From IMG/VR virus record IMGVR_UViG_3300009149_000197, positions 1 through 28,964 of that record: 28,964 nucleotides of DNA; one strand, written 5' to 3'. Both the position numbers and the translations under genes were made by a program. Positions 14,865-26,938 of this stretch are shown one piece after another. The notes below the pieces were generated by a model, which saw only the letters and a program-made list of their open reading frames with translations, ran no database searches and was not told where the DNA came from. Each line of letters opens with the position of its first letter. Position 1 is the stretch's first letter. The stretch comes from a virus.

Positions 14865-15266
14865 TTATGTCGTGATATGTGCCCAGTCGCCCGCCGCGCC
14901 CCATCCAGCAGTTAGAGTAACTGCGCCGTCTACCGACGCCTCGATACTCATATCGACCCACGCCAACCCATAGTGATATTTCGTTGTTGCGCCCGATGAT
15001 GGGTACAGATACATTTTTAGTCTTTCGCCGGAAACCATCGCCGTATAAAATCCTTCGAAAGAGTCATCCCACCATGCGCTAAATTCTCCACTACAATCGG
15101 GCAATCCCTGAACGTACTGGATATTACTATCTCCCATCGCGGGTGTCGCCACTCTATCGGCCGCCATACTAAGTGACCAGCTTTGCAACGACGTGGTGGT
15201 TGTCGCCTCGCCTGCTGCGCTTGTCCCCATATACACTACGCCGCCATGCCCATGATATCTACTCAT
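14865..15266 (-). CDS. Major tail (tube) protein
   Basis: The 133-aa product starts at an ATG with AGGAGG 7 nt upstream, overlapping the previous gene by 8 nt. It is a compact beta-rich protein with tail-tube features: an N-terminal arm (HGHGGVVYMGTSA), a SWSLSMAADRVATPAMGD block of the type used in tube subunits, IQYVQGLPDCSGEFSAWWDD in the middle, and a terminal strand pair (DMSIEASVDGAVTLTAGW). Small tubes of 130-200 aa are normal in siphoviruses. It is followed two genes later by the frameshifted chaperone, which supports the call. Confidence 0.85.
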   Translation of the reverse strand: MSRYHGHGGVVYMGTSAAGEATTTTSLQSWSLSMAADRVATPAMGDSNIQYVQGLPDCSGEFSAWWDDSFEGFYTAMVSGERLKMYLYPSSGATTKYHYGLAWVDMSIEASVDGAVTLTAGWGAAGDWAHITT

Positions 15267-16329
15267 TTTCGTGCCTCCTGCTCTCGTCTACAAAAATCAA
15301 ATTGTCTATTAAGTCCCTAGCCCTGTTCTCGAACGTGTTCCCCTGAACGGCTTCACATAGTTTGCGAGCACGTTCTTCCCGTTCCTTGTCATGCCCTAAC
15401 CACCAGCGCATCATGTCGCCAAACTCAGTGGGATCTCTGAATATCGGCAATGCTCCGCCGAATACCTCTTCCGCTTCTGCCCGATCATCGCTGATAAAAA
15501 ACACACCACTTGCGGCCAGTTCATAATCTCGTGGGCCTAAACTGCTGGCTGCGCCCTCGTCAATGAGCAGAGCGTCTGGCCCATATCCTACTGATCGGCG
15601 GTGTAAGCTGAAACTCATCTTGGCCGCCTTGTACGCGGCAATAGCCCACTCGTTAGGGATTGCATCACTCTGAACGCATTGCCGTAGTGGACTATCATCA
15701 TCTAGCAGCTCCCACACCCCATATAGCCCCAGATCAATTCCCGTCCAGTCTACCTGCTCCAGGAATTCTACTCGTTCCCGAAATCCCGTGCCCACAAATA
15801 CCACGTCATGTCTAGGCATTTCTATTGTGGGCGGCTTGGTATTGTGCCGTTCTGGGTCAAACGCATGTTGCCAATAAAACGTATATGGCTGCACCTCTTT
15901 AAAGGCAGGAAGACTATTCCTCTCATTCGTCCAGCAGGCATATGCGTTCCGTGCCATTTTTAATTGAGGCGCATCATCATAAGGGCTTTCTGTGCACAAA
16001 ATTGCAATCGGCAAGTGTGCTCTATGTAATAGCTCGACCACGTCTGGATGGAAACTCATCCCCGCAACTACCAATACTAGATCGACATTGAATCGGAGTG
16101 CCCGCTCCAGTATCTGCACCGATGTCTGGTATAGAATTTCTTCTTTTGACGGAGGCGCCGCCTCTTTTATTGCGTGTAGAAAATGCAGGTACTGTGCCAT
16201 GACATTCATCCGTCCGTCTAGACTAAATCGTATCACCTCCTGCCCGTGCATCTCTAACCCCTTGGCCAGTCCGTCATGAACCTCAGCGGTTGCATAATTC
16301 GCCGCAGGGTGCACTAGAAGTATCTTCAT
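15259..16329 (-). CDS. GT-B-fold glycosyltransferase (CgeB-like)
   Basis: The 356-aa product begins KILLVHPAANYATAEVHDG, a Rossmann-type start of a GT-B enzyme. In the second domain SLGPRDYELAASGVFFISDD (about 260-285), followed by FRDPTEFGDMMRWWL, matches the donor-binding end of CgeB/glycosyltransferase 1_2-type enzymes, where a Glu/Asp after the Arg contacts the nucleotide sugar. The family transfers sugars from nucleotide donors. The start overlaps the zinc-ribbon stop as ATGA and the gene ends 8 nt into the tail tube gene, so it is expressed with the virion proteins. Acceptor and sugar are unknown; a virion protein or a pre-existing glycan are the main candidates. Confidence 0.8.
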   Translation of the reverse strand: MKILLVHPAANYATAEVHDGLAKGLEMHGQEVIRFSLDGRMNVMAQYLHFLHAIKEAAPPSKEEILYQTSVQILERALRFNVDLVLVVAGMSFHPDVVELLHRAHLPIAILCTESPYDDAPQLKMARNAYACWTNERNSLPAFKEVQPYTFYWQHAFDPERHNTKPPTIEMPRHDVVFVGTGFRERVEFLEQVDWTGIDLGLYGVWELLDDDSPLRQCVQSDAIPNEWAIAAYKAAKMSFSLHRRSVGYGPDALLIDEGAASSLGPRDYELAASGVFFISDDRAEAEEVFGGALPIFRDPTEFGDMMRWWLGHDKEREERARKLCEAVQGNTFENRARDLIDNLIFVDESRRHENE

Positions 16330-16523
16330 TCGTCATCTTCCTCTTGACGGTAATTTATGATAACTTTCTCTGAGAACTCCTCGGGCGGATCGTATGAAAA
16401 CCCCTTCGTGGGTGGGGGCAACGGGGACTCCCGCTTCGCCAAACATTCTGGGCAAACTGGCCCGTCAACCTCTCGCAATAATCGCCCGCAATCCTCGCAT
16501 GTCGTATATCCTTTACCTACCAT
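16326..16523 (-). CDS. Small zinc-ribbon protein in the modification island
   Basis: The 65-aa protein carries a probable zinc ribbon, C-x2-C at residues 9-12 (TTCEDCGRL) and C-x2-C at 24-27 (PVCPECLAK), then a Pro-rich and acidic tail (EEDDE at the end). It starts one base after the sulfotransferase stop and overlaps the GT-B start as ATGA. Possible roles are a binding partner of the neighbouring enzymes or a small regulator; there is no direct evidence for either. Confidence 0.7.
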   Translation of the reverse strand: MVGKGYTTCEDCGRLLREVDGPVCPECLAKRESPLPPPTKGFSYDPPEEFSEKVIINYRQEEDDE

Positions 16524-16524
16524 C

Positions 16525-17097
16525 TCACTCCTTCATGTATCCGTATCTATCTGCCATATCAACGATTCGTGGAAACATCTCGGGAGCGGCTCTACTTAGG
16601 TCATCCCAAGAAATGTCATTGTGCTCTCTGTGATTTGTATCTTTCGGGATACTGGTTGTCGCTACATCATACCTGATTTCGTAACCGAGTATAGCCATGA
16701 TATACGTCCACTCATCTTCAAGATTCTCAATTCGATAGGTCATACACGCTTGATCTTCGGCTAACCGATTCCACCAATACCAATAGTGGGCACTGCGTTT
16801 TAGTACCAGCCAATCAAGATTAATCGGAATCCATCGAGCAACAAAATCCCAGCTACTACTTGTCATCACGCTGGCAATGTTATTCAACGGATGACGCACC
16901 TGGTGGAAAATCCAATCAAACTGCGGTCTTGGCCCTTGCTGGTGAAACTTGGGATACGGCGGACTGGGTGCAGTCCAGACACTGCTAACTGCCCCGTCGG
17001 TTCCCAGATACTCGTGGCCAACATCTATGCCAGCCTGCTGCAAACTTCTCGCTATGTATAGCGTACCACTTCGCCCGCACCCCGTTATTAAGAACAT
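16525..17097 (-). CDS. Sulfotransferase (PAPS-dependent, P-loop)
   Basis: The 190-aa product starts with FLITGCGRSGTLYIARSLQ, the 5'-phosphosulfate-binding P-loop of sulfotransferases (GxGRSGT), and has HQVRHPLNNIASV at about 65-77, fitting the 3'-phosphate-binding block (R-x-P-x-x-x-x-x-S). It is a little shorter than typical family members. These enzymes move sulfate from PAPS to hydroxyl or amine groups on glycans, lipids or proteins. It lies between a methyltransferase (10-nt overlap) and a zinc ribbon, with glycosyltransferases on both sides, which suggests sulfation of a phage-built glycan. Host PAPS would be needed. Confidence 0.8.
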   Translation of the reverse strand: MFLITGCGRSGTLYIARSLQQAGIDVGHEYLGTDGAVSSVWTAPSPPYPKFHQQGPRPQFDWIFHQVRHPLNNIASVMTSSSWDFVARWIPINLDWLVLKRSAHYWYWWNRLAEDQACMTYRIENLEDEWTYIMAILGYEIRYDVATTSIPKDTNHREHNDISWDDLSRAAPEMFPRIVDMADRYGYMKE

Positions 17098-17648
17098 TTT
17101 GCCACCCGCCTGTAGAAACTTGTCTGCGTGGGGCTGAGTTGACTGGCGCTGTTGATCTTCGTCCCTGCAAAAACGTGCCCTTCCCAGCGAAGATCTTCGT
17201 CAAGAGATTTGCTAATCGCTCTTAGCAATCGCCAGTTAGAGTCGTCAATGACTAGATGACCGCCCACCTTGACCTTGCCCATTGCGGTTCCTATACACGC
17301 AATCCGTGTGCTACTATCGCCGTCGACAGAGACGAAGTCGAAATACTCTGACGGGAATCGTCCGATTGCAGCAGTATATTCTGCGAGACTTGTTAGAATC
17401 ACTTGCGGCGATACTCCATGCATCTCGGCTGCTTTCATCACTTCAGCATACCAACTCTGCCTGTGCTCTACTGAAACTACCATCTCTGCACGTTTCGCTA
17501 ACCAGATAGTAGAATGCCCACTGCCATACTCAAAGACTCGACACATGCCCTCATATGGTTGCAAGAGAACATCCCAATAAGCGATGGCCTCAGGAATGAG
17601 CGACGGTGTGGGATCACTTCCTATGGGTCTCACTCTATGATTATCCAT
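17088..17648 (-). CDS. Class I SAM-dependent methyltransferase
   Basis: The frame extends to a TTG at 17696, but I prefer the ATG at 17646-17648: GAGG lies 5 nt upstream and it does not overlap the previous gene. The 186-aa product contains motif I as VFEYGSGHSTIWLAKRA (SAM-binding loop), a motif II acidic residue in VVSVEHRQSW, FDFVSVDGDSS in the motif IV region, and VKVGGHLVIDDS as the following strand. The fold is clear but the substrate class is not; O-methylation of sugars, as in many glycan clusters, fits its neighbours. It overlaps the sulfotransferase start by 10 nt. Confidence 0.8.
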   Translation of the reverse strand: MDNHRVRPIGSDPTPSLIPEAIAYWDVLLQPYEGMCRVFEYGSGHSTIWLAKRAEMVVSVEHRQSWYAEVMKAAEMHGVSPQVILTSLAEYTAAIGRFPSEYFDFVSVDGDSSTRIACIGTAMGKVKVGGHLVIDDSNWRLLRAISKSLDEDLRWEGHVFAGTKINSASQLSPTQTSFYRRVAKCS

Positions 17649-17670
17649 TGTCCCCTCATAATATGAAAGG

Positions 17671-18363
17671 TCATTCTTGCTCCCACCACCCCACAACGTC
17701 TAGCCCCTTGTCGTTTAAATATACGTTCTTTGACCATAATGAATCAATTGAGTCAATAGCCGTAATCGAACTGATCTTGCTTCGATGTGGAATAACTACG
17801 CGCTCAATTTCCCGCCGATGTAGGTGTGCGCTAATAACAATATCATCATTCATGGGCCATTGCTCCCACTCTTTAAGGAGGCTGATCCTGAGCAACCCCG
17901 GCCGATATAGTGCTCCCCAATTCCCCGATAGAATTGACACTGAGACAGCGGGCCCTTCCCTCACAGAAATTGTTGCCGCTGAATTGTAATTTCTATTATC
18001 CCCCCTAAATACCCGCCCACGATAGCACGGGACACAGCCCGAATGATGTTCGCTATAATCTATCAGGTCTTCCGCCCAATGCTCACCATAGAGCACGTCA
18101 TCATCGGCAGTAATGATCATTTCGGTCTCTATATTCAGTAATGCGGGCAATAGCTTCGTGATCGGGCCATAATCTGCCGTCACTTCAACACAACAATCAG
18201 CTAAAAAATCTGGCACTTGACCATCCCAAGTCACCCCTAATCGCGTGACTTCTTTCGGAATCCAGACATATACCGGTAATCCCTGTGCCAGCAATCCATT
18301 AATGCACGGCTCAATATACGGTAGGCGGCCCGGTATGGTTGTAAGAGAGATGATTGTCTTCAT
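17671..18363 (-). CDS. GT-A-type glycosyltransferase (230 aa)
   Basis: The product starts KTIISLTTIPGRLPYIEPCI, as in nucleotide-sugar transferases, then has a GPITKLLPALLN stretch and the metal-binding DxD-type motif in MIITADDDVLYG (about 83-94). The later NWGALYRPGLL and WPMNDDIVISAHLH segments resemble the acceptor side, with a second acidic cluster (NDD). It overlaps the preceding GT2 gene as ATGA. The sugar and acceptor are unknown. A role in glycosylating virion proteins or a host-surface glycan is inferred from the neighbouring transferases and from the late operon. Confidence 0.75.
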   Translation of the reverse strand: MKTIISLTTIPGRLPYIEPCINGLLAQGLPVYVWIPKEVTRLGVTWDGQVPDFLADCCVEVTADYGPITKLLPALLNIETEMIITADDDVLYGEHWAEDLIDYSEHHSGCVPCYRGRVFRGDNRNYNSAATISVREGPAVSVSILSGNWGALYRPGLLRISLLKEWEQWPMNDDIVISAHLHRREIERVVIPHRSKISSITAIDSIDSLWSKNVYLNDKGLDVVGWWEQE

Positions 18364-18872
18364 TGCATTTTGCTCATTGCTTTTTTAATCCACATGATCT
18401 TATCTGCTAGTTCATAACACCTGGTCAGAAATGGATAATCTCCTCCTCGTTTAGGCTCAAATGCTTCTATTGCCTGCATCCACACATCTCTTTGTACCAC
18501 CACTGCGCTAATGCCTATCTCCCCAAACCCCGGACACCTCATCCCCTGCTTTGGCAATATCCTGCCCTTATGATCCATTTGCATTACGATCAGATCTGGG
18601 TCATTTGCGATAACAATGTCTCGAATCTCTGCTACAAAGTTTTCGCTTATCAATTGGTCATCATCGTCTAGAATGAAAACGTAATCCCCATAGACCTTAT
18701 CCTTATGAACTATAAGCTGGCGATTGGCCCACTCAATCCCATGGCCCTTGCTATCTTCCAGAACCAGGTGCTGAAAATCCTGATCGGTCTGTACGCGTAA
18801 GCTGGCAGCGCAAACAGCGAATTGCTCTTCCCGACTCAACAAGTGCCGAGTTACTACCGTTAGCAAGGTCAT
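18360..18872 (-). CDS. GT2-like glycosyltransferase (170 aa)
   Basis: This short GT-A enzyme begins LLTVVTRHLLSREEQF and has the metal-binding aspartates in YVFILDDDDQLISENF (about 64-79), the hallmark of family 2 transferases. It lacks the longer C-terminal half of full GT2 proteins, as do several GT2-like proteins in phages. The start overlaps the tail terminator stop as ATGA and the end overlaps the next transferase as ATGA, so it is translated in the structural operon. Donor and acceptor are not predictable from sequence alone. Confidence 0.8.
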   Translation of the reverse strand: MTLLTVVTRHLLSREEQFAVCAASLRVQTDQDFQHLVLEDSKGHGIEWANRQLIVHKDKVYGDYVFILDDDDQLISENFVAEIRDIVIANDPDLIVMQMDHKGRILPKQGMRCPGFGEIGISAVVVQRDVWMQAIEAFEPKRGGDYPFLTRCYELADKIMWIKKAMSKMQ

Positions 18873-19387
18873 TCGGAATATGTCACCGTTTCGTTTTCAA
18901 ATACCTCAAAATTGATCTCAACATAATGACAGAGCGTGTCGCCAAAAAAGCGTGGCTCAAATACGTCTATGCTGGGCCAGCTCCCCCATGTACTCATGTC
19001 TGACTTGTCCACATAGCCTCCCCACGTCAGTACCCCGTTCAATGTGGGATATTGTCGCAGATAAACTATCATAGCCTCCGCTGCATTAAATGCCGTCTTC
19101 TCTGAGGCGTCACTATCATAGACCCCGAAATATCCCAGAACCTGCACTCCGTAAACATTCCTGAACCGCCGCCCGCCCAAGTCCATATCGTCCATCTTGG
19201 TGAACGTAACTTCCCAGCCTCGAATGACTTCACTGCCGCTAACTGTAACTTTGTACCTATTTAAAAACACGCCCCAGTCGGCGGCAAACCTACGGTAGTC
19301 ATGTACCACTGCATCAGGATCAGCAGCCGCTACTAATGCCGCAACCCCGGCTCGAATCTCGGTTGCACGCGCCCCCATCGCTGTCAT
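18869..19387 (-). CDS. Tail terminator/tail completion protein
   Basis: The ATG at 19385-19387 overlaps the connector stop as ATGA; the frame also opens at 19408 but with no clear ribosome site. The 172-aa product has an N-terminal helix (ATEIRAGVAALVAAADP), alternating strands, a helix (KTAFNAAEAMIVYLRQYPT) and a terminal strand (CHYVEINFEVFE), an arrangement like lambda gpU or SPP1 gp17 family tail terminators. These cap the tail tube and join it to the head. Position after the connector and before the tail tube (interrupted by six enzyme genes) supports the call. Confidence 0.75.
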   Translation of the reverse strand: MTAMGARATEIRAGVAALVAAADPDAVVHDYRRFAADWGVFLNRYKVTVSGSEVIRGWEVTFTKMDDMDLGGRRFRNVYGVQVLGYFGVYDSDASEKTAFNAAEAMIVYLRQYPTLNGVLTWGGYVDKSDMSTWGSWPSIDVFEPRFFGDTLCHYVEINFEVFENETVTYSE

Positions 19388-20259
19388 CTTGTGTATCCCC
19401 CATGCCACACCCAGTCTCTACCATATTCTGGTTGCGTGTCCCAGTCCACCCACGCACTCGCCGGGCGTTCGCCGCCCTTACCATCAAGTCCTATGTAGTC
19501 CATATACTGCTGCTCTAATTCGTCCGCACGGTGAGCATGTTCGCTTGCCTTGGTTCGGTGATGGCTGCTATCAATAGACAGAGTCGAGTCGCTTGCCTTG
19601 GAGAACTTAACGGCCATTGCCCGGCAGCAATAAGACGCCGCCAGGTTACACACAATGAAAAAGTCCTCAGTCGGTATAGAGCTTTGTAGCATCTTGACCG
19701 TATAGCTATCCTCGTCTGCCACTGCGCTTACCTGGTAAGTAGCAATCTGAATCGAGGTCGCTTCTTGCCAAACGCTATCGGAATCCTGGTATACGTAATC
19801 ATCTTTGGCAAACCCGTGCCCCGTCTGACTTACGGCAGTGGTAGTACTTGACGCGCCCCAAATCCATGGGGTGGTATAGCGTATTCGCATGGTTTCTGTG
19901 CTGGCCGGAGAATGATTCGGAAGATAGAGATATCGTGAGCCGCTGGCCCAATAGTCATCATCCCAGTTATCGGGGTCTAGGTACGCTGGTGCTTCGTCGC
20001 TCGCAACGGTTGGCGCAGGGTAGTCAATCGACAATACCCGCGAGAAGCCCTCGCGCCAGTTGGTCAACTCTGTGGATAGAACATAATACTGGCCGCCATC
20101 GCCAGTTACGTCATCTATATCCTCGTCAGGGTTGTCACGACTATACCGAGATACGGCCTGCTTGATCTGCCGGTATCGCTCCAACTCATCTAGGATATCG
20201 TTATCGGCGTCAATGATACCGTCTACTTGCGCCAGAAACACGCTGATCAAAATAGCCAT
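19384..20259 (-). CDS. Head-tail connector/adaptor protein
   Basis: The 291-aa product starts at an ATG with GGGGAGG about 4 nt upstream. The N-terminal helix (ILDELERYRQIKQAVSRYSR) and the C-terminal helical segment (CNLAASYCCRAMAVKFSKAS, then a His/Glu-rich helix ending LEQQYMDYIGL) resemble the helical adaptor proteins that bind beneath the portal. The middle third is beta-rich, probably an inserted domain, which makes it longer than the minimal gp6-type adaptor. It precedes the tail terminator with a 4-nt overlap. Confidence 0.6.
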   Translation of the reverse strand: MAILISVFLAQVDGIIDADNDILDELERYRQIKQAVSRYSRDNPDEDIDDVTGDGGQYYVLSTELTNWREGFSRVLSIDYPAPTVASDEAPAYLDPDNWDDDYWASGSRYLYLPNHSPASTETMRIRYTTPWIWGASSTTTAVSQTGHGFAKDDYVYQDSDSVWQEATSIQIATYQVSAVADEDSYTVKMLQSSIPTEDFFIVCNLAASYCCRAMAVKFSKASDSTLSIDSSHHRTKASEHAHRADELEQQYMDYIGLDGKGGERPASAWVDWDTQPEYGRDWVWHGGYTR

Positions 20260-21852: not shown

Positions 21853-22406
21853 ACCACACCTCCAGCTATAATCTCAAACGCCAGTGCATCTTTGCTAGGA
21901 CATATCTTCTGTCCTAGCGCTGTCTTGAACTGACGCCAATCTAATCTCAATCTCATCTTCGCCAGTCTCAAAGCCCATCGTACTGGCAACCCCAATCTCA
22001 ATCCTCGCCACACCCATCGGGCCAATAGGTCGGCCCCTACTACCCGTCGTGCCGCCCCATAGTTCGGGCCTGGCCCTGCTATCACAATTGCACCCGCACT
22101 AGTCAACGCGCTCACAAATATATCTTCTGTGCCATAGCAGTTCGCTATAAGAACAACGCAACCACTAAGACTTGCATGTGCTAAATTTCTAATCACAAGA
22201 GCCGTCGGCTTTGATCCGTCCTGCCCTTCTCCATACCATTGTCCCTGTGCAGTGCTGTGCAATCGGAAGTAAAGCATATCTAGATCACGCAATTTCCTAA
22301 CTGGAAACTGACTAGCTATGAGTGGCGGCGAGGTCAAAGGAGTTATCCCTAGCGCCTTCTGTACGGCCACCGCCGCCACCTCGGTACAATAAGCTACTAT
22401 TCTCAC
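21849..22406 (-). CDS. CHAT/caspase-fold-like cysteine protease candidate
   Basis: The 185-aa product has the pattern of a caspase-hemoglobinase fold, CHAT-type. The strand LDMLYFRLHS ends in a candidate catalytic His50. The strand CVVLIANCYGTED carries candidate Cys90 followed by Gly, as in the CHAT L-x-A/N-C-x-x-G block. AGAIVIAGPG follows as the next strand, and ARWVWRGLRLGLPVRWALRL matches the closing helix pattern of CHAT domains (G-x-x-V-x-x-A-L). It is a single domain with no signal peptide. Its start overlaps the lipoprotein stop and its end overlaps paralog A (ATGA both times), so all three are co-translated. Likely targets are neighbouring virion proteins, but cleavage is unproven and the protein could be inactive. 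Confidence 0.55.
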   Translation of the reverse strand: MRIVAYCTEVAAVAVQKALGITPLTSPPLIASQFPVRKLRDLDMLYFRLHSTAQGQWYGEGQDGSKPTALVIRNLAHASLSGCVVLIANCYGTEDIFVSALTSAGAIVIAGPGPNYGAARRVVGADLLARWVWRGLRLGLPVRWALRLAKMRLRLDWRQFKTALGQKICPSKDALAFEIIAGGVV

Positions 22407-24430
22407 TTGATTCTTATGTAGAGCAGGTACAGTGTCAGTTCGCCAGCTTCCAGGTCATCGCCCGTCGCGCCCCACGCCACATCAATAGTATCAGCTGCGC
22501 CGCTCGGAGCAATGATATAGCCCGCCCCTGCCGCCATATACGCGCCAATAGTATCTACCCCATATCCCTGCCAACCCGCAGGCCCGTTCGCAACATCCGT
22601 GTCTGCCTTTTGTAGTTCAGCATCGTCCAAGTCCAAAATGCCGTCGGGGTCAGCAGTATCCCCCACATCAAAAGTAGCATCATCGCCTGCCGTTGCATCC
22701 CAGTCCGTGGTAACGTTAGCGTAGCAATTGAGAATGATCCAGATTTCGCCGTCAGGAACTGTAGCCAGCGTATGAGTTCCGCCAGCCCCAATTGTCCAGG
22801 TGATATCTTTTGTTATCAACGAAGGGGCCATAAAGTTCTTGACCTCAGCCGCCAGCGTGGTCAAACCGCTTATGCTAACATCCCCCGTCATGGCAATAGT
22901 GCCATCCGTGTTGTTGTCAATGGTCTCTCCATGGTCGAGCACAATGTCTGCCCCCGTGAAGGAAGCATCCTCCATGTTGATTCCATTGACCATATCGCTT
23001 GCGCCAGAGGTCATCTCGACGCCAACATCCATTTTTGCGCCGCTGTTGCTGGCATGGCTGTTCAGGAAGAGCCCCGCGTCCATGTTGGACGAGCTCTCGA
23101 TATTGATGCCATAATCGACCACAGTGTCGTTGTGCGTCTTGAAGAACAGGCCATTGGTCTGTACGTCAAAATCCTCAGTAGCCGTTGGCCCCCATTCGCC
23201 ATAGAGCAGGTTGAGCGTAGCCGAACTCCCGCCCATGTTCGACAGCATCCCGCCAGAAGTGCCACCGTGAATGGCCGCTCCCACAGCGGAGATATTGTCG
23301 TCGACAGTATAGGTCTGCGTCTCGTTCACGTTGACTAGAACGTCAATCGCGTGCAACTGATTCACTGCCACCGCTTCGCCCGCGCCTCGCATGTCCATCC
23401 GCCCACGCAGTGCATAAGCGTTCTGTACGTCTTCAATGGGATTAGAGGAGGCATAGATGCCGTTGCTACCCCCACCGGTCATATCAGCGCCCGCCGTCCA
23501 CTCTGCGGTGATCAAGTCTCCATACTCATTGGCCGTAGTCGTGCGGCTGATGTCAACTGTAGAGTTCATATCAACCGGGCCATCTGCGCGTAGCGTGCCG
23601 TCAAACTCACCATCTCCAGCTACAAGCAAATCATTATCGCCATCGGCTACATCGCCATCTACACCCGCATTGCCAACATTTAGCATGTCGCCATCAATGG
23701 CAAAGGGCCCTGCGGTTGTCAGGTCAACGTCCACGCCCAAACTACCGACATCGATGTCAATTCCGGCACCAGTTTCATCCGCATCCAAGTAGATAGCAGC
23801 TTGATCAGCTTCGTCGCCTTTGATTGTAACGCTAGCTACTTCAGACTCAATAGTTATGTCACCTGCGGCGGTATTGAAATTGCTCGCAAGATCGGCATCT
23901 AACGCAATAGCCCCTTCAGCATCAACGTCAAGCCCCGCGCTACCGGTGTCTATGTCAATTCCACCACCAGTCTCGTTCGCATCCAAGTGGATAGCATCCC
24001 CAGCCGCCTCGTCACCCTTGATGATGACACTCTTAGTCTCGGCTTCGAGGGTTAGGTCAGCAGCGCTCACGTTGAAATGACTGGCCGTATCTGCATCCAA
24101 GGTTATCGCCCCAGTAGTATCCACATCAAACGCGCCAGTTATCGACGCGTCGTCCACCACTGTGAGATTGCCGTCCGCGATATTAAGCGCGTCCTGGCCA
24201 GCCGTTCCCGTGATTTCCAACGCAGCATCTGAGGCGTCCCATAGCATAACGTCGCCACTCGTGCCGCTATACCAGGTCACATCAACGCCCGTGCCGCTCA
24301 CGCCGAAATGCGTATCACTCGTAACGTGACTCGTTCCCATCTCCTGAACTTTGTCTCGTTCGCAGCCAATCAACCCGATCATTAGGATGACGGCCAGGAG
24401 AACACTCCATATAATTCTTTTGTGTCTCAT
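22403..24430 (-). CDS. Large predicted lipoprotein with tandem beta repeats
   Basis: The 675-aa product starts with a charged N-terminus, a hydrophobic core and the lipobox LIGC (Cys23), i.e. a classical lipoprotein signal peptide; Glu follows the Cys, which in diderms often means outer membrane. Residues about 107-238 contain two 66-residue repeats (first lines GAITLDADTASHFN and GAIALDADLASNFN). A long beta-rich fibre-like region and a C-terminal beta domain (about 555-675, ending LTLYLLYIRIK) follow. It lies 24 nt after the capsid gene. It may be a surface-exposed late lipoprotein (superinfection exclusion or receptor masking), or a virion fibre whose N-terminus only resembles a signal. 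Confidence 0.7.
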   Translation of the reverse strand: MRHKRIIWSVLLAVILMIGLIGCERDKVQEMGTSHVTSDTHFGVSGTGVDVTWYSGTSGDVMLWDASDAALEITGTAGQDALNIADGNLTVVDDASITGAFDVDTTGAITLDADTASHFNVSAADLTLEAETKSVIIKGDEAAGDAIHLDANETGGGIDIDTGSAGLDVDAEGAIALDADLASNFNTAAGDITIESEVASVTIKGDEADQAAIYLDADETGAGIDIDVGSLGVDVDLTTAGPFAIDGDMLNVGNAGVDGDVADGDNDLLVAGDGEFDGTLRADGPVDMNSTVDISRTTTANEYGDLITAEWTAGADMTGGGSNGIYASSNPIEDVQNAYALRGRMDMRGAGEAVAVNQLHAIDVLVNVNETQTYTVDDNISAVGAAIHGGTSGGMLSNMGGSSATLNLLYGEWGPTATEDFDVQTNGLFFKTHNDTVVDYGINIESSSNMDAGLFLNSHASNSGAKMDVGVEMTSGASDMVNGINMEDASFTGADIVLDHGETIDNNTDGTIAMTGDVSISGLTTLAAEVKNFMAPSLITKDITWTIGAGGTHTLATVPDGEIWIILNCYANVTTDWDATAGDDATFDVGDTADPDGILDLDDAELQKADTDVANGPAGWQGYGVDTIGAYMAAGAGYIIAPSGAADTIDVAWGATGDDLEAGELTLYLLYIRIK

Positions 24431-24454: not shown

Positions 24455-26938
24455 CTACACATTCGCTTTGTAAAGCGGTCGGAAGTCGGCTACCGGTGCG
24501 CAGTCATAGGTGGAGCTAAATCTATAGATCATCAACCGCACCTTGAACCGCAAAGTATCATTCGTGAACATAGAACCAGCAGTCTCGTCCCCTGCCTCGA
24601 AAATCTCAGGTGTCCGCAGCCCACGCAAATAAACGAGATAGATCGCAGGCCATTGTCTAGGATCAGCTACTGCCGCCCAATGATCCGTTTCTGTCCATTC
24701 AGGGACTGTGATAATCTCAAATCCCTGATAGTACGGGTTCACATCGTTGTCCATCGAAACAGGCACAAACTCACTGTTGCGAATCTGCGTTGCTGTTGAT
24801 CTAAGATCAACAGGCACAAGTAGAAAATGCGGCTGAATCAGCAACTTTGTACCGGCGCCCAGCGCCTGGTCGGTTTGCTTCATCATTGCCGTCACTGCCG
24901 CGTCCCACGTTGTGTAACTTAGTGCCGTAGTCCCAAGGTTAGCGTGTCCACCTGAGCTTGAAGCTGCCGTCGCGTTGAACAATGCCCCGCTCGGGTTCAT
25001 CACGGGTCCCGTAGCAGTGTTCGTGGTGAACACCGCACTCACCAGCGCCGACTGGGTGTTAAACCACGAGTTAGACAATCGCCTTGGAAGCGATCGAATC
25101 ACATTCAACTTGTCCTTTAGCATCGTCTCCATCGTGATTCCCATATAGTTACCGCGCTTGACAAACGAAGCGGTTTCTTCCTCGTCAGTCCAGTCCATTT
25201 CAGTGTAGGCCGCGCCTTCTGTAACCGTATCCAATGTGTCCGTTCCGTACAGCCGTGCCAGAGTGATGTCGTCAATAGTATCAACTTCCTCAATTGTCAC
25301 GACGTCTTCAAACCACCGGCGACGCTCAGAATAATCGGCCGCCACTAACAGGTTCACTGTATTCTTGATGATGGTTGTAACCGTAGCGGTTGTTACCGCT
25401 TCACGCGCCCTTGACGTTAGGGGATTCCCGCCCCATACGTTATAAAGCCAGTCGGACAATCGGCGTTCCCGATAGTTTGGTCGGCCCGCGTTCTGCCATG
25501 AACGATAGGATTCGGGCATACGATCCTTGACCCAATCCTCGCTTATGCTTTCCAGCTTGCGCATTGTGCTGCTACCGGCAACCAGGTCGAGAAATGCCAT
25601 TTCAGCCTTCTCAATACTCGCCATGCCTACCTTGATATCCCCACCGCCCGCGCCGGTTATACGCCCGCTGGTATCGGCTTCGGCCTGTGCGCCCTTCAGT
25701 TGTTTCACCATTTTGTCTACCTCTGCTTCCGTTACAACGCGTCCGTCAAAAGCTGCCTCAGCTACTGCTTGAAATTTGGCCGACAGATTAGCCCTCGCTA
25801 GCTTTTTGTCCATCATGATCTGCGATTCCAGCTTGGCCACCTTCTTGGTCATACTGTCGTCCTCAACGATTTCAGTCTCTTCGACTTCGGGCTCTTCGTC
25901 AGAAGCCTCTTCAACAGGTTCCGCGTCAACTTCAGGCTCAACTTCCTGTTCGCTCTCTGGCTCGCTTTCGATAACCTCTTCTCTTATCCCCAGCTCGGCG
26001 AGGGCCGCCTTGAGCTCTTCGGGATCAGCTTCCTGCAAAAATGTCAATAGTTTACCCATCTCGTCTACTCCCTGATCTACTGTTATGGCCGCCACGATTC
26101 TATCAAATGCTCCGCCGGCAGCCGGGTTTGATACCACGTCTACTGAGAAAATGTGCTCAAAGGATTCGATGGTCGGCCACATGTCGCCCTCTACACGCAC
26201 TCGACCCACGTTTCCCGGTACGGTGTCAATGCTCAACCCAATACTATCCAGCACGCCCGCATCATGGGCGGCTTTCAATTTCTTGCCTAAAGCTTCATCT
26301 ACAACCTTCAGGCGCCCCCGCAACTTATGAGCACTCTCGTCCCACCGTACATTGACAATCGTGCCCACCCACTCGTTTGCTACGGAACGCATTCCCTGAC
26401 GCTGTTGAAACTCTTCATCGGATAAATGGTTGTCAAAAACCTTGACGCCTTCCCATAATCCGACGCTGTCACGCAATCCGTCAACACTGTACAACCGTTC
26501 ATTCTTGGAGCGAATGTACTGCCGCCCCTCGACGGTAAGCAGATCGCCGCCTTCTCTTGCGCCAATGAGCGTTACATCCCACTCGCGGCCTGTAAACTCG
26601 CCGTCCCCTTGTGCTGGTGTAACGTCAGCCTCAACGATATGTGACTCGCGCCCCACCCCTGGCCGTTCTGCGCGCCGCATTGTACCGCCACATTCTGGGC
26701 ATTTAATATCAGCACAATGTTCCTCGCTTGCCATAACATACCCGCAGTCCAGACATTCACATTGATAAGCCTCCGTTTGCTCTTTGGCAGAGCGCCACTG
26801 TGAATAACAAATAGCCGTTGCTTGATTCCGATCCTCTTCACTATCTGAGTCTAGCCCTTGATCCTCAATCACTATCGGAATGCAACGGGATATAAACTCT
26901 TGTTCTTTTTCCCCTGACGTAGGTGCCGGTAGTGGCAT
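24455..26938 (-). CDS. Fused prohead protease, linker and major capsid protein with zinc ribbon
   Basis: The 827-aa product starts behind GGGAGG (6 nt spacing). The N-terminus resembles that of other prohead proteases (ICYSQWR at about 43-49), then a zinc ribbon follows with C62-x2-C65 and C80-x2-C83. Residues about 115-285 are the HK97-type protease: VKVFDNHLS with His171 and SIGLSID with Ser236, then EHIFSVDVVSNPA. An acidic, helical linker (about 300-400) resembles the scaffold or delta domain, and about 400-827 is the HK97-fold capsid (IIKNTVNLLVAADYSERR, then GNYMGITMETMLKDKL, ending CAPVADFRPLYKANV). The protease would cut the linker after assembly. A fusion makes protease and capsid one-to-one, unlike most phages, unless an internal start is used. 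Confidence 0.88.
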   Translation of the reverse strand: MPLPAPTSGEKEQEFISRCIPIVIEDQGLDSDSEEDRNQATAICYSQWRSAKEQTEAYQCECLDCGYVMASEEHCADIKCPECGGTMRRAERPGVGRESHIVEADVTPAQGDGEFTGREWDVTLIGAREGGDLLTVEGRQYIRSKNERLYSVDGLRDSVGLWEGVKVFDNHLSDEEFQQRQGMRSVANEWVGTIVNVRWDESAHKLRGRLKVVDEALGKKLKAAHDAGVLDSIGLSIDTVPGNVGRVRVEGDMWPTIESFEHIFSVDVVSNPAAGGAFDRIVAAITVDQGVDEMGKLLTFLQEADPEELKAALAELGIREEVIESEPESEQEVEPEVDAEPVEEASDEEPEVEETEIVEDDSMTKKVAKLESQIMMDKKLARANLSAKFQAVAEAAFDGRVVTEAEVDKMVKQLKGAQAEADTSGRITGAGGGDIKVGMASIEKAEMAFLDLVAGSSTMRKLESISEDWVKDRMPESYRSWQNAGRPNYRERRLSDWLYNVWGGNPLTSRAREAVTTATVTTIIKNTVNLLVAADYSERRRWFEDVVTIEEVDTIDDITLARLYGTDTLDTVTEGAAYTEMDWTDEEETASFVKRGNYMGITMETMLKDKLNVIRSLPRRLSNSWFNTQSALVSAVFTTNTATGPVMNPSGALFNATAASSSGGHANLGTTALSYTTWDAAVTAMMKQTDQALGAGTKLLIQPHFLLVPVDLRSTATQIRNSEFVPVSMDNDVNPYYQGFEIITVPEWTETDHWAAVADPRQWPAIYLVYLRGLRTPEIFEAGDETAGSMFTNDTLRFKVRLMIYRFSSTYDCAPVADFRPLYKANV
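26057..26072 (-). promoter_or_regulatory. Possible internal ribosome site and start inside the capsid fusion gene
   Basis: A GGGAG (26068-26072) stands 8 nt before an in-frame ATG (26057-26059), codon 294, exactly between the protease domain and the acidic linker. Initiation here would give a 534-aa linker-capsid protein without the protease, which would solve the stoichiometry of the fusion. The positioning is suggestive; use is unproven. Confidence 0.45.

Follow-up and report, generated by a model that had tools for sequence, protein, structure and literature searches.

In mycobacteriophages, phage-encoded glycosyltransferases make glycans on the capsid and tail tube subunits (Freeman et al. 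2023, as described in PMC12619734 and PMC10877033), and how a phage decorates its particle is a question that bears on phage particle biology generally, because these virion glycans act as a shield (PMC12619734). Phage sulfotransferases have been reported as auxiliary metabolic genes (PMC10580990, PMC8290583), and their function in phages has been called unclear (PMC10580990). Here we describe a six-gene cassette on the minus strand of a 28,964-base virus record (IMG/VR record IMGVR_UViG_3300009149_000197, hereafter the window), located at positions 15259-18872, with the gene of a probable tail terminator on one side and that of the tail tube on the other. The best explanation for this cassette is a variant form of the virion glycosylation described for mycobacteriophages; as there, a glycosyltransferase gene lies in the structural operon, here the GT-B gene beside the tube gene, a likeness at the level of the genes. 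The window differs from the mycobacteriophage system in that a methyltransferase gene and a sulfotransferase-like gene accompany the glycosyltransferases and, judged from a partial literature search, tailoring with methyl and sulfate would be a novelty in virion glycosylation. We assign a probability of about 0.5 to the reading in which the locus is a late-expressed virion glycosylation cassette, with a GT-B enzyme that probably acts on the tail tube and with methyl and sulfate tailoring by its companions.

The GT-B gene (15259-16329, minus strand) overlaps the major tail tube gene (14865-15266, minus strand; major tail protein family phrog_10528 of PHROG, E = 8.3e-10) by 8 nt at 15259-15266. 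A GT-B profile built from four sequences found 256 relatives among the IMG/VR viral contigs, 80 of which were fetched; the loci were gathered by this search alone, and the tube was not a selection criterion. There are 82 non-self loci with GT-B, of which 76 are readable to the next gene and the remaining six end within 156 bases. The next gene after GT-B is a tail tube homologue in 76/76 readable relatives, within 133 bp in 73 of them. At 85% identity the loci separate into 58 lineages, with a median identity of ~37%, and the distances between the GT-B proteins follow those between the tubes (Mantel r 0.80; 0/2000 permutations as high, none above 0.21). On these comparisons GT-B and the tube are an old and widespread pair with a long shared inheritance, and their co-divergence supports a functional tie without proving it, as the shared descent of the structural block contributes too. 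Because the GT-B gene stays beside the tube in all 76 relatives and co-diverges with it, the virion is a likelier target than DNA, in agreement with the original prediction made from the sequence of the window.

The same pairing bears on the chief rival explanation, host-surface remodelling, in which the enzymes would modify a cell-envelope glycan late in infection, serving superinfection exclusion or progeny release, and would lie in the late operon only for their expression. Phage glycosyltransferases are known to alter host serotypes (PMC12619734), and the solved folds closest to GT-B act on small molecules, lipids, and glycans. However, an enzyme aimed at the host surface would need neither the constant position beside the tube nor the co-divergence, and no membrane segment is evident in any of the six proteins when judged by eye rather than by a formal helix prediction. 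We consider host-surface remodelling rather unlikely, at roughly one chance in five or a little above in our weighing.

The GT-B protein matches Pfam Glyco_trans_1_2 (E = 1.4e-13; 51.4 bits against a cut-off of 25), and its AlphaFold2 model, computed from 53 sequences, has a mean predicted local distance difference test score (pLDDT) of 96.4 and a predicted template modelling score of 0.92. This confident model predicts a GT-B fold with two Rossmann domains. It aligns over nearly its whole length with the GT4-type enzymes BshA, MshA, and PimA, and in the VIA alignment with BshA (3mbo) the Z score is 26.5 and the root-mean-square deviation is 3.1 over 321 residues. Compared with these GT4-like enzymes, the window protein shows only ~13% identity to any solved member, and its family occurs almost only in uncultivated phages. 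Tblastn searches with two GT-B members gave no match among 50,697 phage records, a further difference from the mycobacteriophage system, and the tubes likewise gave none in this collection. Among 84,980 species genomes, GT-B is present in three, all from Actinomycetota; one of these is the cultured Klenkia brasiliensis DSM 44526, in which a tube gene follows immediately after GT-B, and within the 297 genomes of its class GT-B is limited to Klenkia itself.

The GT-B model also matches the T4 alpha-glucosyltransferase solved with DNA (1y8z, Z 22.7), so that the fold alone cannot choose among protein, lipid, small-molecule, and DNA acceptors. This match favors DNA hypermodification, in which the enzymes would glycosylate modified bases of the phage genome, as does a distant relative of the sulfotransferase-like protein (in L102) whose neighbour is a protein that weakly matches a TET-associated glycosyltransferase domain (3.3e-5). 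In every relative, however, the location is the tail operon and not the replication genes, and we noticed no gene for a base-modifying enzyme in the window, a weak point given that the window is a fragment. DNA hypermodification is thus the least probable of the explanations weighed here, and we give it very little credence.

The original prediction had placed six co-directional, tightly packed genes, and with them the glycan enzymes, within the virion operon, and both points are borne out by the sequence. The minus strand of the window carries a siphovirus-like structural operon with an SPP1 gp7-like minor head protein, a protease/major capsid fusion, the tail tube, and a long probable tape measure. 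The six open reading frames, all on this strand, are joined by ATGA overlaps between the probable terminator and the first GT-A gene, GT2a (18869-18872), between GT2a and the second, GT2b (18360-18363), and between the zinc-ribbon and GT-B genes (16326-16329), all read from the sequence; the methyltransferase and sulfotransferase-like genes overlap by 10 nt (17088-17097), and a 1-nt gap separates the latter from the zinc-ribbon gene. A second IMG/VR record, a 15,010-base contig, carries the identical stretch with 100% identity, so misassembly of a single contig does not account for the arrangement. Pieces of the cassette architecture are also seen again in many lineages, and together with the identical second contig this recurrence argues that the layout is not due to chance.

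The products of the genes were assigned with different degrees of firmness, and here the original identifications hold for GT-B, for the methyltransferase at the cut-off, and for GT2a by PHROG, while they are weaker for GT2b and motif-based for the sulfotransferase. GT2a (18360-18872, minus strand), a small GT-A protein described as family-2-like, matches the PHROG glycosyltransferase family phrog_14775 (1.3e-6), whereas its Pfam Glycos_transf_2 match (0.045, 14.1 bits) stays under the cut-off of 23.3; a relative of GT2a (4e-90) occupies the same slot in locus L019. GT2b (17671-18363, minus strand), also described as family-2-like, is a probable second GT-A glycosyltransferase with an acidic TADDDV motif; its match to Glycos_transf_2 (0.056, 13.8 bits) is under the same 23.3 cut-off, and no solved relative was found. 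The S-adenosylmethionine-dependent methyltransferase (17088-17648, minus strand) matches Pfam Methyltransf_24 at 1.5e-5 with 26.3 bits, exactly the cut-off of 26.3 and thus borderline, and matches solved O-methyltransferases weakly (E 0.01). Its reading frame was listed from a TTG at 17696; the ATG at 17648, which sits behind GAGGGG, is the more likely start and would separate the gene from GT2b by a short gap. When the methyltransferase and GT2b of the window were used to seed iterated profiles, the window's virus was the only one among the fetched GT-B loci with homologues of either, and tblastn matched neither protein in the phage collection.

The sulfotransferase-like P-loop protein (16525-17097, minus strand) has no Pfam family match even at E 1. 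It contains a 5'-phosphosulfate-binding loop (5'-PSB), GCGRSGT, and a 3'-phosphate-binding motif (3'-PB), RHPLNNIAS, and both motifs of this 3'-phosphoadenosine-5'-phosphosulfate (PAPS) binding site are kept in all six viral sequences. Contigs with viral relatives of the protein are L091, L092, L093, L098, and L102/L103, the last two being a near-identical pair. Throughout the family G..R(S/T)GT is followed by R(D/H)Px5S, an order shared with the known sulfotransferases (Sulfotransfer_1/3/4). None of 20,000 shuffles of the window protein held both motifs; the RxPx5S pattern is present in 9/20, 9/12, and 1/11 members of three known sulfotransferase families and in 0/29 P-loop kinase controls from two families. 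With hhalign, the family aligns to Sulfotransfer_3 at P 0.001, compared with 0.45-0.58 to two kinase controls; this profile support is confined to the region around the P-loop, and hhalign performs poorly even between Sulfotransfer_1 and Sulfotransfer_4. PDB sequence searches with the protein, its profile, and the corresponding protein of locus L018 returned nothing relevant and no solved relative. Taken together, the motifs make it quite probable that the window protein is a sulfotransferase. As a check of folds, structure prediction upheld GT-B, with the pLDDT given above, and gave an unusable model of the sulfotransferase-like protein (pLDDT 38, four sequences).

The sole match to the sulfotransferase-like protein in the phage collection is in Phage C48C1 (Kyanoviridae), where the gene lies outside the structural operon in the region shown. 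Glycosyltransferases, Methyltransf_24, TylF, and carbamoyltransferase domains are encoded beside the relatives in other contigs. In L098, L093, and L102, the relatives sit in a glycan cluster of another kind, together with glycosyltransferases, methyltransferases, and a carbamoyltransferase. The small zinc-ribbon protein with an acidic tail (16326-16523, minus strand) matches zf-ChsH2 of Pfam weakly (0.0019), but the CxxC..CxxC pattern is present; this pattern also occurs just upstream of GT-B in L017, L034, and L035, and in L018 it is joined to the C-terminal end of that locus's sulfotransferase-like protein.

Upstream of GT-B, the gene content changes between lineages. Using profiles built in this analysis, several seeds of which were checked against Pfam, we counted the cargo in the 48 lineages whose upstream sequence spans 2 kb or more and found a methyltransferase in 33/48, a GT-A/GT2-type enzyme in 32/48, and either of them in 42/48. 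Other genes near the cassette encode DegT aminotransferases (L036, L045), an NAD epimerase (L073), and a UDP-sugar dehydrogenase (L010); in L010, a gene judged from its sequence to encode a probable HNH endonuclease (889-1581) lies between the capsid and glycosyltransferase genes. In the case of L018, the order is terminator, methyltransferase, a sulfotransferase-like protein fused C-terminally to the zinc ribbon, GT-B, and tube. Its sulfotransferase-like protein reaches Sulfotransfer_3 at 0.011 only, under the cut-off, and the gene is very different from that of the window while occupying the same slot; in a motif scan, only the window's virus and L018 had a sulfotransferase-like gene in the slot before GT-B. 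The idea that sulfation belongs to the set gains support from L018 and from the conserved PAPS motifs. In L017, the order is terminator, methyltransferase, zinc ribbon, GT-B, and tube, and in L019 it is the GT2a homologue, another GT2, GT-B, and tube. Among the loci compared, the full six-gene order recurs in the second contig of the same virus and in no other lineage.

Judged from these comparisons, the genes upstream of GT-B are variable cargo, mostly glycan enzymes, that turns over between lineages. The original view of a single six-gene insertion between normally adjacent genes had to be given up, as GT-B and the tube are an old pair and the upstream genes are variable. We reject the idea that the six genes arrived together as one unit: only GT-B stays with the tube across relatives, and the upstream genes change. 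The strong differences in upstream content, with the exact set only in the window's virus, would also fit a mosaic cargo site, a permissive gap before the GT-B/tube pair that collects accessory genes unrelated to one another and not working in a shared pathway. Such a reading would apply to the five genes upstream of GT-B. Glycan enzymes, however, dominate the cargo, GT-B itself shows no turnover, and the methyltransferase, sulfotransferase-like protein, and zinc ribbon are found together again in L018. A mere cargo site is in our judgment unlikely, less so than DNA hypermodification and more so than host-surface remodelling.

The most economical reading is that GT-B is a tube glycosyltransferase and that the rest is a lineage-variable elaboration. 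GT-B would attach a sugar, most likely to the subunit of the tail tube, the gene of which overlaps its own, and the two GT-A enzymes would make the glycan longer or branched. Methyl and sulfate caps may then be added by the methyltransferase and by the sulfotransferase-like protein, the latter with its zinc-ribbon partner. Translation within the tail operon would place the enzymes beside the new tube protein before tail assembly, and the benefit could be a changed surface charge and recognition, shielding, or an effect on adsorption. Several points weigh against virion glycosylation with such tailoring. The adjacency of GT-B and the tube is also compatible with late expression of enzymes aimed at another target; no Ser/Thr of the tube is conserved across relatives and also present in the window so as to mark an acceptor. 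The glycans of the mycobacteriophages sit at the C-termini of the capsid and tube proteins; the search for an acceptor tail found no obvious conserved or added Ser/Thr tail at the tube C-termini here. In addition, GT2b is a weak assignment, the least certain of the cassette's glycosyltransferases, and two short motifs are the basis for calling its neighbour a sulfotransferase-like protein. That the phage puts a glycan both methylated and sulfated on its tail tube is doubtful when taken as one complete statement, at somewhat better than one chance in four.

Upstream of the cassette, the minus-strand gene at 18869-19408 probably encodes a tail terminator or tail completion protein, as suggested by its position and by same-place relatives in L018 (3e-26) and L061 (9e-7); it had no significant Pfam or PHROG family match. 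The major capsid protein (24455-26938) is fused to a prohead-protease/scaffold-like part and has an N-terminal rubredoxin-like zinc ribbon at residues ~55-93. Immediately after the capsid gene, 22403-24430 encodes a 675-aa protein with no significant Pfam or PHROG match. Two phages of the GT-B family carry an extra Glyco_trans_1-type gene between the minor head protein and prohead protease genes (L019, 2539-3786; L020, 2386-3498), which suggests a capsid-side glycosyltransferase as well.

If the phage does put such a methylated and sulfated glycan on its tail tube, the window's virus would carry a sulfated virion glycan, phage sulfotransferases would gain a defined role, and the cassette would be the elaborate version of a glycosylation locus that is tied to the tube, widespread, and missed by cultured-phage collections. 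The finding offers a testable role for phage sulfotransferases, and it suggests that many uncultivated phages share tail tube glycosylation, through a gene pair that the isolate collections have missed.

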